A DNA stretch of 64,000 nucleotides from the NCBI RefSeq assembly GCF_030605225.1, contig NZ_JAUWAV010000015.1, positions 1 to 64,000 of the forward strand, in the 5' to 3' direction. The stretch comes from Geoalkalibacter sp. Its GTDB lineage: Bacteria; Desulfobacterota; Desulfuromonadia; Desulfuromonadales; Geoalkalibacteraceae. The notes under the pieces are model-generated. The model was not told the DNA's origin. It did no database searches and saw nothing but the letters and a program-made list of their open reading frames with translations. Made by a program: the position numbers and the translations under genes. This document shows positions 44,542-52,621 of the stretch, in pieces (the first letter of the stretch is position 1; each line of letters opens with the position of its first letter).

Positions 44542-44610
44542 TTTCCCCTTGAAATTGCGGTGATTCCGGCTTTTTCTCCCCTCGTCCGCCCGCCGGCAAA
44601 GGAGCTGATC

Positions 44611-45654
44611 ATGCTGAAAAACGCGGTGCTCATCGGTCTGTCCCTGCTCGTCTCCCTCGCGACGCTTGTTCCCTTGGCCTCGGCCCAGGACGATCCCCTG
44701 GCCGCCTGGCGTCCCGCCTTCGACCCGAGCGGCGCCCAGTACACCTACATTCTCTCCAATATCGATCACCCGGCCATCGCCGGCATCGGCGTCGGCTATC
44801 GCATCCGCGACAAGGTGTGGGAGCGCTCCGAGGGGCGCCTCTACGTCGATTTCCGCCCCTTGGCGCAATTGGGCGGCGAGCGCGACGTGCTGCAGAAGCT
44901 GCGGCTCGGCGCGATTCACGGCATGATGTGCTCCTCGGTGGCCGCGGCCAACCTCTCACCGCGTCTGGGCATCGTCAATCTGCCCTTCGTCATCGAGACT
45001 TTTGAAAAACTCGAAAAGTTCCGCAACACGCCGGAACTGTTCGACGAGTTCGCCGCCGCCGCCCATGCCCAGGGCGTGACCGTGGTCGATTTCACCAGCT
45101 ACGGCCCCTACGGCTGGGCCACCACCACGCCGGTGGCGAGCCTCGCCGATGCCGGCAAGGTCAACTTCCGCATCGCCGAGGCGCCCGTCAACACCGATCT
45201 GTATCGCGCCTGGGGCTTCAAGTTCACGGTCATGCCCTGGCCCGACGTGCACCAGGCCCTGCAGACCGGCGTCATCAACGGCCTCGATCACACTCTCATC
45301 GTGTGCAGCATCACCCGCAAGTTCGACGTGGCGCGTTATTTCACGCCCCTCAATTATGCCCAGGGCCTCTATATCCACATGATCAATCGCCGCTGGCTCG
45401 AGCAACTGCCCGAGGATCTGCGAAAGATCCTGGTGGAGACCATTCAGGAGGAGAGCGCCGAGGCGCGACGTCTCGGCCGTATCCAGATCGAGGAAGAGAC
45501 CGCCCGCGCCCGCGAGGCCGGGGTGACCTTCGTGGAATTTCCCGCCGCCGAGCGTGAGCGGCTCAAGGAGATGGCCGCGCCGGTCTATGAAAAATGGTCC
45601 GAGCGCATCGGCAGCGATTATTTCGAAAAGGTCCGCGCTCGGTTGGGGGATTGA
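44611..45654 (+). CDS. dctP: TRAP transporter substrate-binding protein 1 (DctP family)
   Basis: A 347-residue periplasmic solute-binding protein with signal MLKNAVLIGLSLLVSLATLVPLASA. The DctP fold shows in LAQLGGERDVLQKLRLGAIHGM, KVNFRIAEAPVNTDLYRAWGF and the C-terminal helical EESAEARRLGRIQIEEE. Substrate is likely a carboxylate but the specificity-determining Arg was not located. AAGGAG precedes the ATG. A near-identical paralogue follows 93 bases later. Confidence 0.93.
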   Translation: MLKNAVLIGLSLLVSLATLVPLASAQDDPLAAWRPAFDPSGAQYTYILSNIDHPAIAGIGVGYRIRDKVWERSEGRLYVDFRPLAQLGGERDVLQKLRLGAIHGMMCSSVAAANLSPRLGIVNLPFVIETFEKLEKFRNTPELFDEFAAAAHAQGVTVVDFTSYGPYGWATTTPVASLADAGKVNFRIAEAPVNTDLYRAWGFKFTVMPWPDVHQALQTGVINGLDHTLIVCSITRKFDVARYFTPLNYAQGLYIHMINRRWLEQLPEDLRKILVETIQEESAEARRLGRIQIEEETARAREAGVTFVEFPAAERERLKEMAAPVYEKWSERIGSDYFEKVRARLGD

Positions 45655-45747
45655 GGGGCGAGAAAACCCTTTTTTTAAAACGCGGTTTGTTTTATTCTGG
45701 AGCGCACGTCTGGCAGCAAACATGTGACCCCGGAAAGGAGTTCGACA

Positions 45748-46785
45748 GTGAAGAAGCTTTCAGCAGCGGTTTTGGCGGTGGTGATGCTGGCCCTGGCGCC
45801 GGCGCTCGCCCAGGCGCAGGACGATCCCCTGGCGGCCTGGCGACCGGCCTTTGATCCCTCGGGGGCCAAATACACCTACATCCTCTCCAATGTGTCGCAT
45901 CCGGGCATCGAGGGCATCGGCGTCGGCTACCGCATCCGCGACAAGGTGTGGGAGCGCTCCAACGGCCAGCTCTACGTCGATTTCCGCCCCCTGGCGCAGC
46001 TCGGCGGCGAGCGCGACGTGCTGCAGAAGCTGCGGCTGGGCGCGGTGCAGGGCATGCTCTGCTCCTCGGTGGCGGCCGCGAACCTCGCCGACCAGCTGGG
46101 CGTGGTCAATCTGCCCTACGTGGTCGATACCTTCGACAAGCTCGACAAATTCCGCGCCACGCCCGCGCTCTGGGAGCCCTTTCGCGACAGCGCCCTGCGC
46201 CAGGGCGTGATGGTCACCGACATCACCGGCTACGGCCCCTACGGCTGGGCCACCACCACGCCGGTCAAGACCCTGGCCGATGCCGGCAAGGTCAACTTCC
46301 GCATCGCCGAGGCGCCGGTCAACACCGATATCTATCGCGCCTGGGGCTTCAAGTTCACCGTCATGCCTTGGCCCGACGTGCCCCAGGCCCTGCAGACCGG
46401 GGTGATCAACGGCCTCGACCACACCCCCATCGTCTGCAACCTGACCAAGAAGTTCGACATCGCCAAGCATTTCACCCAGGTCAACTACGCCCAGGGGCTC
46501 TTCGTGCATCTGATGAACAAGCGCTGGTTCGACGGGCTGCCGCCCGAGCTGCAGAAGGTGCTGATCGAAACCATCGAGGAGGAAAGCGCCGCCTCGCGCG
46601 TCGCCACCCGCCGTCAGCAGGAGGAGCAGATCGAGGCCGCCAAGGCCAACGGCGTCACCTTCTATCCCCTTGCCGACGAGGACCGCGAACAGTTGATCAA
46701 GCAGGCCGAGCCGGTGCTGGCCAAATGGGGCGAGCGCATCGGCGCCGACTATCTGCAAACCGTTCGCGATACCCTGGGCGACTAA
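45748..46785 (+). CDS. dctP: TRAP transporter substrate-binding protein 2 (DctP paralogue)
   Basis: A 345-residue binding protein closely resembling the gene before it (shared QDDPLAAWRPAFDPSGA, GYRIRDKVWERS, GYGPYGWATTTPV). GTG start at 45748 with AAAGGAG upstream and a signal peptide ending AQA. The two differ most in the second half and C-terminus (YPLADEDREQL against VEFPAAERERL), suggesting tuned ligand range after tandem duplication. An intra-operon terminator follows. Confidence 0.93.
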   Translation: MKKLSAAVLAVVMLALAPALAQAQDDPLAAWRPAFDPSGAKYTYILSNVSHPGIEGIGVGYRIRDKVWERSNGQLYVDFRPLAQLGGERDVLQKLRLGAVQGMLCSSVAAANLADQLGVVNLPYVVDTFDKLDKFRATPALWEPFRDSALRQGVMVTDITGYGPYGWATTTPVKTLADAGKVNFRIAEAPVNTDIYRAWGFKFTVMPWPDVPQALQTGVINGLDHTPIVCNLTKKFDIAKHFTQVNYAQGLFVHLMNKRWFDGLPPELQKVLIETIEEESAASRVATRRQQEEQIEAAKANGVTFYPLADEDREQLIKQAEPVLAKWGERIGADYLQTVRDTLGD

Positions 46786-48675: not shown

Positions 48676-49101
48676 ATGGAACTTAAAATTCTGCTGCCCC
48701 TCGACGATTCGGACACCTCGAAGCGCACCCTGGCCTACGTTCTCGCCAACCGCGAGCGCTTCACCCCGCCCCTGACGCTGCTGCACGTGGTGAGCATCGA
48801 CAAGCTCGCCTACCGCATGATCCCCGATTTTCAGATGGACATGGTGCGTGAGCGCGCCCGCGCCACCGGCGAGCAATTCCTGCAAAAAACCAAGGAGCGT
48901 CTCGCCGCAGCCGGCCTCGACGTGGTGCCGCGCCTTGAAGTGGGCAACCCCCGCGAGCTGATTCCGCGCATCGCCAACAGCGAAGGCTTCCAACTGCTGG
49001 TCATCGGCCGCGGCCACATGGGCGAGATTCGCGACGTGCTGTTCGGCTCCGTGGCCAATCACGTCGTCCATCAGGTGCGCTGTCCGGTGCTTTTGATTTG
49101 A
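48676..49101 (+). CDS. Universal stress protein (UspA family)
   Basis: A 141-residue UspA domain. The ATP-binding signature G-x2-G-x9-GS is present in GRGHMGEIRDVLFGS near residue 117, so it is of the nucleotide-binding type. UspA genes commonly follow TRAP transporter operons. TAGGAG precedes the ATG and it lies 17 bases after dctM. Confidence 0.92.
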   Translation: MELKILLPLDDSDTSKRTLAYVLANRERFTPPLTLLHVVSIDKLAYRMIPDFQMDMVRERARATGEQFLQKTKERLAAAGLDVVPRLEVGNPRELIPRIANSEGFQLLVIGRGHMGEIRDVLFGSVANHVVHQVRCPVLLI

Positions 49102-49141
49102 GTTTTGCTTTATACTTGGCTGACAAGACAAGGAGGACGAC

Positions 49142-49231
49142 ATGAGTGACCTCTGGATTCTGCTCGGCGTGGTTGCCGTCTGGTTCGTGCTCAACCGCTG
49201 GATTCTGCCGCGTCTCGGCGTGACCACCTGA
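49142..49231 (+). CDS. 29-codon single-helix membrane protein, possible UGA read-through
   Basis: A tiny gene with an excellent AAGGAGG 5 bases before the ATG. The product is 29 residues, MSDLWILLGVVAVWFVLNRW then ILPRLGVTT, one hydrophobic helix followed by a short polar end. It is terminated here by TGA (49229-49231), but the frame continues without a stop to 49291: LSSDCSPGGRAKKKKIEED. With UGA as selenocysteine the product would be 49 residues with a U-x4-C motif and a basic tail. I believe proteins with a Cys at the corresponding place exist in relatives, but that is unverified recall. Confidence 0.7.
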   Translation: MSDLWILLGVVAVWFVLNRWILPRLGVTT

Positions 49232-49291
49232 CTGTCCTCCGACTGCTCTCCCGGGGGGAGGGCCAAGAAAAAGAAAATTGAAGAAGACTGA
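49229..49291 (+). other. In-frame TGA with SECIS-like hairpin and 19-codon extension
   Basis: Thirteen bases after the TGA, GCUCUCCC (49245-49252) pairs with GGGAGGGC (49256-49263, one G-U) around a GGG loop. The loop is 21 bases from the TGA, inside the window expected for bacterial SECIS. No U-tract follows, so it is not a normal terminator. The frame ends at TGA 49289-49291. Confidence 0.45.
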
Positions 49292-49297
49292 AATCAA

Positions 49298-49330
49298 GAG
49301 GGGCGGCCGCAAGGCGCCCCTCCTTGCTTT
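49298..49330 (+). terminator. Terminator between the small membrane protein and cls
   Basis: Stem GAGGGGCG (49298-49305) with CGCCCCTC (49315-49322), loop 9 bases, then CTTGCTTT. It may serve the rightward TRAP-UspA unit and partly the leftward cls. Confidence 0.7.
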
Positions 49331-51352: not shown

Positions 51353-51862
51353 TCAGTCGATTTTCTGGAAGGCGTTCTTACCGGCGCCGCACACCTCGCA
51401 GGGTCCGGTCGGTTCTCCTTCGAGGGTGTGTCCGCAAACCTGGCACACGTAGTAGTCGACTTGGGCGTTCTTGCCCAGGCTCTCGAGGGCCTTCTGGTAG
51501 AGGCCGGCGTGGACCTTCTCGACGACGTTGGCGAACTTGAAGCTGCGCAGGGCCTCGGTGAAGCCCTCCTGCTCGGCCTCGACGATCATCCGCGGGTACA
51601 TGTCCATGAACTCGTGGGTCTCGCCGCCGATGGCCTCGCGCAGGTTGTCGGCGGTGGCGCCGATGCCCTTGAGGGCGCGCAGATGGGCATGGGCGTGGAC
51701 GGTTTCGGCGGCCGCAGCGGCGCGAAACAGCTTGGCCACCTGCGGGAATCCGTCGAGATCGGCCTTCTTGGCGAAGGCCAGGTATTTGCGGTTGGCCTGG
51801 GATTCTCCGGCAAAGGCTTCCTTGAGATTTTTTTCGGTTTTGCTTCCGGCGAGCTCAGCCAT
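51353..51862 (-). CDS. Rubrerythrin
   Basis: A 169-residue rubrerythrin, a peroxidase of anaerobes. N-terminal ferritin-like diiron domain with ESQANRKY, ETVHAHAH, EFMDMYPRMIVEAEQE and EKVHAGLY carrying the metal ligands. C-terminal rubredoxin-like domain with two CxxC pairs (CQVCG and CEVCG). Has its own terminator. Likely detoxifies hydrogen peroxide using NAD(P)H-linked rubredoxin reductase elsewhere. Confidence 0.95.
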   Translation of the reverse strand: MAELAGSKTEKNLKEAFAGESQANRKYLAFAKKADLDGFPQVAKLFRAAAAAETVHAHAHLRALKGIGATADNLREAIGGETHEFMDMYPRMIVEAEQEGFTEALRSFKFANVVEKVHAGLYQKALESLGKNAQVDYYVCQVCGHTLEGEPTGPCEVCGAGKNAFQKID

Positions 51863-52008: not shown

Positions 52009-52440
52009 TCAGTCGCGAGAAACGTTTCCGATGAGGTTGTCGAGCAGTTCGAGATGGCGTTCCTCGATGGCGAGGATGTGGCGCAGAATCTGGGCGAGGG
52101 AATCAAGACCGAGGGCCTCGGCCTGCACGATGCGACTCTGGTAGCGCACAATGGCGTCCTGTTCGCCCTTGCGATCCTGGGCGAGCAGCGCCAAAGGCTT
52201 TTCGCTGGTGCGGGCGCGCGGCGAATGAACATCGGGCCGTCCGCCGAGCAGGCGAATCTGTTCGGCCAGGATCAGGGCGTGCGCCAGCTCATCGCCGGCC
52301 AGATTTTGCAGGTGCTCGCCCAGGGTAACGGCCCGTGGATTGAGCATGCCGAAGTGCTGGGTATATTGGATGACCGCCATGTATTCCAGGCGCAAATCAC
52401 GGTTGAGCAACGCGATGAATTCGTTGAAACCAGGCGTCAC
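52009..52440 (-). CDS. Ferritin-like / bacterioferritin-related protein
   Basis: About 143 residues, four-helix ferritin-like: FIALLNRDLRLEYMAVIQYTQHF, then DELAHALILAEQI, EQDAIVRYQSRIV and IEERHLELLDNLI, with conserved Glu/His metal ligands. GTG start at 52440 is preferred since AGGAG is 6 bases upstream; an ATG at 52446 would be too close to that site and a TTG at 52482 is also open. Probable iron storage or DNA protection in stress. Confidence 0.8.
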   Translation of the reverse strand: MTPGFNEFIALLNRDLRLEYMAVIQYTQHFGMLNPRAVTLGEHLQNLAGDELAHALILAEQIRLLGGRPDVHSPRARTSEKPLALLAQDRKGEQDAIVRYQSRIVQAEALGLDSLAQILRHILAIEERHLELLDNLIGNVSRD

Positions 52441-52621
52441 CTGCATCTCCTGGAGGATGGATAAGGGGCACAGCGATCGCAAGTATAGCGCGCTGCGTAC
52501 AAAAAAACAGCAGGCCGGGGCGCTTTCCGTGGTGATCCGGGCTTGCCAGGGGCCGCGTCAGCCCTTAAAATCAATTTCATTGTCAACGCCTAAGTGAATT
52601 CAGCGGGATGGGAGAGGCGGC

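Follow-up and report, generated by a model that had tools for sequence, protein, structure and literature searches.

A central question raised by this locus is whether the TGA codon that closes a very short open reading frame acts as a stop or encodes selenocysteine (Sec). In the window, that is the whole 64,000-nucleotide stretch of Geoalkalibacter sp. DNA that was analysed, a 29-codon frame on the forward strand runs from an ATG at 49142 to a TGA at 49229-49231. The ribosome-binding site AAGGAGG (49130-49136, forward strand) is located five bases 5' of the ATG, in agreement with the good ribosome site claimed in the preliminary description. Past the TGA the frame remains open for another 19 codons (LSSDCSPGGRAKKKKIEED) and ends at a second TGA (49289-49291), so that read-through would yield a forward-strand gene of 49 codons plus stop (49142-49291) with Sec at codon 30. 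The open frame and the UxxxxC pair formed with a cysteine at codon 35 (49244-49246), both pointed out earlier, are confirmed in the sequence. Taken alone, the read-through frame could be a product of chance; the single sequence is only suggestive, and it is comparison with relatives that establishes the assignment.

Relatives were searched by tblastn using the 49-residue protein with Cys at residue 30 as query. Homologues were found in all six genomes of the family and in 203 of the 244 genomes of the class, representing 73 of 79 genera, and every homologue among the class matches listed crosses exactly one TGA. More distant members were sought with a family profile built from 31 members (alignment A1), which identified homologues in 168/395 genomes (111/245 genera) of the phylum, all with the TGA among the matches listed. 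The same type of search recovered the family in 22 of 246 Planctomycetota genomes (about 18 TGA and 4 Cys forms) and in 21 of 237 genomes from the phylum to which the delta MAG G630 belongs (our guess is Myxococcota), where both Sec and Cys forms occur. A tblastn search of plasmid sequences with two Cys forms gave no match.

The family consensus reads M-x-D-x-L-x-L-L-G-I-V-A-V-W-F-V-L-N-R-W-I-L-P-R-L-G-V-Q-T-U-(M/L)-S-D-S-C and is followed by a Lys/Glu tail. W14, L22, P23, G26, T29 and C35, together with the Sec/Cys column 30, do not vary in A1; A2, a wider alignment, keeps M1, P23, G26, T29, column 30 and C35 invariant. Most of the 185 distinct members (154) have Cys35, and 20 have no Cys within eight residues of the position. 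UxxxxC is thus not universal, as position 35 lacks a Cys in L105 (TUMSSPQ), L119 (TUMSGPQ) and L146 (TUMRPVKR).

The conventional explanation is that the TGA is a normal stop, that the product is a 29-residue membrane peptide and that the conserved hairpin 3' of the TGA is a terminator or a regulatory element. The 29-residue frame is complete, a GC-rich hairpin follows it and a normal stop calls for no further assumption, yet this explanation is contradicted by what lies beyond the TGA: relatives keep the frame, the residue pattern and Cys35, and third-position variation is coding-like. Conserved termination, which the preliminary description had named as grounds for giving up read-through, was looked for as well. 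The codon at position 30 in LPxxGVxT-U-x(4)-C is TGA in 169, TGC in 9 and TGT in 7 of the 185 distinct members, with no TAA, TAG or other sense codon, in a tally that splits frames at TAA and TAG; genome searches, which read through all stops, list no significant match with TAA or TAG in place of the TGA. The proposed search for homologues with either Cys or U at residue 30 therefore returns 169 TGA and 16 Cys members and nothing else.

The Cys forms, in which a sense codon carries the frame across this position, were sought with a degenerate DNA pattern whose TGA version recovers 104 known loci. In a genome collection of 84,980 species the Cys pattern has 11 matches, of which nine score 42-56 bits against the family profile, and the clear Cys homologues come from deltaproteobacterial, Planctomycetes, Chloroflexi and Cyanobacteriota MAGs. 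Among clear matches on contigs that reach far enough, the Cys forms have a start codon 17 codons ahead of position 18, like the Sec forms. Of the 11 genomes with a Cys-pattern match, six have no SelA match and two have weak partial matches only. One weak 'Cys form', L049 (G230), was rejected as a chance match (18 bits, no helix). A second Cys is missing from three Cys forms (L258, L262 and L264). Two of them, L258 and L262, have a frame that continues into an apparent DUF302-type domain, possibly as a fusion. ORFs similar to this extension are found 3' of the Sec forms L256, L260 and L261, and two of these ORFs have no NCBIfam match.

The hairpin downstream of the TGA, GCUCUCCC-GGG-GGGAGGGC, occupies 49245-49263 of the forward strand and consists of eight base pairs and a GGG loop. 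It begins 13 nt past the TGA with its three-nucleotide loop 21 nt away and carries no U-tract, exactly as first described. Folded alone it reaches -12.7 kcal/mol; when just the 48-nt context is folded, a competing structure comes out slightly ahead. It agrees with the published criteria for bacterial SECIS elements (bSECIS), namely a loop of 3-9 nt with G in the first two positions, located 16-37 nt from the UGA, and a folding energy of at most -7.5 kcal/mol (PMC13188914). For the window gene (L002), 1% of synonymous recodings of the post-TGA region give an equally good hairpin under the bSECIS model. A search of the window against Rfam gave no match; to our knowledge Rfam holds no general bacterial SECIS model, so this result says little. 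A second strong hairpin (49295-49326, forward strand; -21.6 kcal/mol, z -3.1) with a weak U-tract lies 3' of the true stop and is a candidate terminator; it had no match in the consensus scan.

Support for the first hairpin comes from the family as a whole. Compared with synonymous recodings, the post-TGA region of 122 Sec members folds more stably (mean z -1.05, Wilcoxon p 1e-17). A covariation test on the 46 members that have their stem centre 28 nt along found 96.6% of cells paired, compared to 67% in shuffles, and 112 double (compensatory) changes, a number that never exceeded 51 in 1000 shuffles. The stem is lost when the register is slid by 1-3 nt, a comparison that favours the observed register because the grouping was picked by best stem; the shuffle control is less biased. 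The bSECIS criteria are passed by 62.5% of 168 Sec forms versus 8.4% of synonymous shuffles (p 4e-28), and the commonest loops, GGA, GGUC, CGUGC and GGC, have a G near the loop start, as expected. In the Cys forms, 3 of 16 pass, with no excess over shuffles (p 0.65). Two of these three are L158 and L161, TGT forms in SelA-bearing genomes that keep SECIS-like hairpins (loops GGTT and GGTC) and are likely to be recent Sec-to-Cys conversions. The lack of a U-tract and the absence of the hairpin from most Cys forms speak against the normal-stop explanation.

Selenocysteine insertion additionally requires the dedicated machinery, and the check for selenocysteine genes suggested in the preliminary description finds selA, selB, selD and tRNA-Sec in the source genome (G000). 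More specifically, selA, selB and selD follow each other at C21:34652-38703, selD carrying an in-frame TGA of its own, and the tRNA-Sec with anticodon TCA is at C44:13804-13895. Across the 244 class genomes, 195 have both the gene and SelB over the cut-off, 8 the gene only, 21 SelB only and 20 neither (Fisher p 4e-12, phylogeny ignored). That the gene tracks SelB is a further point against a normal stop, an explanation that we consider extremely improbable.

Read-through of the UGA could alternatively insert Trp or employ a near-cognate tRNA, giving rise to short and long forms. The few gene-bearing genomes seemingly without SelA and SelB would fit such a mechanism: SelA is found in three of the eight gene-only genomes and in none of the other five. 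Two of these five, G067 (TGA gene L036) and G090 (TGA gene L040), are 99% complete; a putative assembly gap over the selAB locus or a decaying Sec trait could explain the absence. The eight gene-only genomes also count against the Sec assignment. Against another amino acid, Cys is the sole replacement seen (16 of 16), and the SECIS criteria, the covariation, the Sec machinery and the co-occurrence all favour Sec, leaving this alternative very improbable too.

Taken together, homologues, Sec/Cys exchange, SECIS and Sec machinery support the 49-residue selenoprotein proposed earlier, and the evidence supports a find larger than first thought. On these sequence-based grounds we are highly confident that the gene encodes a genuine selenoprotein of a new family. 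Ribosomes would start at 49142; at the UGA at 49229, SelB with Sec-tRNA(Sec), placed by the hairpin at 49245-49263, would insert selenocysteine, and translation would end at 49289. The product would be a 49-residue single-pass inner-membrane protein. AlphaFold2 predicts a single membrane helix for codons 2-21 (49145-49204, forward strand) and a low-confidence tail, and the positive R19 and R24 at the C-terminal end of the helix suggest an N-out, C-in topology. Sec30 and Cys35 would hence be on the cytoplasmic side just past the helix, where they probably form a reversible selenenylsulfide.

Gene neighbourhoods were inspected for indications of function. In the window, a universal stress protein gene, usp (48676-49101, forward strand; Pfam Usp, E 5.6e-26), precedes the selenoprotein gene by a 40 bp gap and is itself preceded by the TRAP transporter genes dctP-dctQ-dctM (Pfam DctP 2.1e-46, DctQ 4.7e-25, DctM 5.7e-111). 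Two tandem paralogous genes for DctP-type binding proteins lie at 44560-46785, 5' of dctQ-dctM. The selenoprotein gene is convergent with a cardiolipin-synthase-like (PLD) gene, and a rubrerythrin gene (51353-51862) and a ferritin-like gene (52009-52482), both on the reverse strand, are found nearby. Rubrerythrin-like genes also occur near the family gene at L176, L208, L212 and L232. The Sec forms have no common neighbourhood across the loci compared, and their gene contexts are very mixed.

Among 87 same-strand adjacent genes, thioredoxin types are the commonest Pfam families, by raw counts with no background rate. A thioredoxin gene is directly 5' of the Sec forms L173 and L181, close 5' of L256 by sequence inspection, and ahead of the Cys form in the delta MAGs L163 and L165. 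Four Cys forms (L156 and L163-L165) have a DsbD_TM-thioredoxin fusion within a few bases 3'. The Gimesia Cys forms are flanked by a human-type sulfide:quinone oxidoreductase (SQR; E 7e-130 to SQOR structures) and by an MBL-rhodanese protein that is similar to persulfide dioxygenases. At L228, L229, L231, L159 and L160, the small Cys protein is encoded between the MBL-rhodanese protein and the human-type SQR, in that order. A Sulf_transp gene is 1 bp 5' of L240.

From these neighbours, present at a minority of loci, and the one-helix model, we infer a thioredoxin-linked, probably sulfur-related redox role, in which the protein would serve as a membrane-anchored, cytoplasm-facing UxxxxC relay connected to thioredoxin and sulfide/persulfide metabolism. 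Electrons would most likely be relayed between thioredoxin and a membrane-bound redox partner; that this partner is a thiol, persulfide or sulfide system is a working hypothesis that we hold to be plausible but short of probable. Alternatively, the protein may be a membrane-tethered reductase for peroxide or oxygen stress instead of a sulfide/persulfide relay. The rubrerythrin gene near the window gene fits this function, as does L232, with rubrerythrin directly 5' and a hybrid-cluster (Prismane) protein 3', whereas the most specific operons hold thioredoxin/DsbD, SQR and persulfide-type genes and, as modelled, a peptide of about 50 residues would lack a peroxidase fold of its own. We regard a stress reductase as rather unlikely.

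Neither Pfam nor NCBIfam 20.0 has a significant model for any of the 31 members; weak helix matches to Pfam Arabinose_trans and NCBIfam PRK13454, far below cut-off, were rejected. Searches of open-licence papers for the family motif strings returned noise only. None of the 119 prokaryotic selenoprotein families catalogued in May 2026 resembles this one (PMC13188914). The family is accordingly absent from the catalogue and the named libraries, the scope of our search together with open-licence papers, and may be annotated elsewhere.

Several known families nevertheless share features with it. The catalogued KCU-star/DUF466, MerT-like, YeeE/YedE and SELENOW-like families likewise combine an in-frame UGA with a bacterial SECIS, some catalogued families are small or membrane proteins, and Cys homologues exist; no catalogued family has a single N-terminal helix with LPxxGVxTU(M/L)SxxC behind it, as found here (PMC13188914). 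In TsoA (LULAxC, NF045695), likewise, L/M comes after U and a Cys is close by, but its spacing is UxxxC as opposed to UxxxxC, and NF045695 matches none of the 31 members. A DsbD-type partner is common to TsoB (a rhodanese/DsbD fusion, NF045694) and the present family, and the DsbD-like protein encoded next to the Cys form L165 scores 81 bits to TsoB, far under the cut-off of 805. Thioredoxin-fold selenoproteins have a Trx fold with UxxC or CxxU; one helix, a low-confidence tail and UxxxxC place the present family outside them. The eukaryotic SELENOK and SELENOS are also small and span the membrane once, and their Sec is located in a disordered tail in the cytosol. Their resemblance would be an analogy of working mode with no homology claimed; they are larger, have Sec near the C-terminus and have the SECIS in the 3' UTR.

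A Geobacter candidate from 2007, which comes from the same bacterial group and was also found through conserved TGA read-through, is a multiheme cytochrome, unlike the protein described here, and was the sole new candidate reported in that screen (PMC1914089). Running deep-Sep on Desulfuromonas soudanensis WTL (3,958,620 nt) gave 13 known and no new selenoproteins; genome G031 carries the family gene at 395548. One older selenoprotein screen applied a length limit of 80 residues even when reduced. The present family suggests that small selenoproteins in general are hidden by length cut-offs.

The selenoprotein family described here is new to the published catalogue; it occurs in 83% of the genomes sampled from one class and spans three or more phyla. 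Sec/Cys exchange and the gain and loss of SECIS can be traced inside one tiny family. For anaerobic bacteria, it provides an uncharacterised membrane selenol as a candidate for sulfide and thiol redox. A broader reading, which we consider possible but somewhat doubtful, is that of an ancient cross-phylum mini-selenoprotein whose selenol, tethered to the inner membrane, links thioredoxin in the cytosol to sulfide/persulfide redox at the membrane (SQR, DsbD-like proteins). If true, few selenoproteins of its class would be as widespread, and it would have been overlooked because it is under 60 residues.
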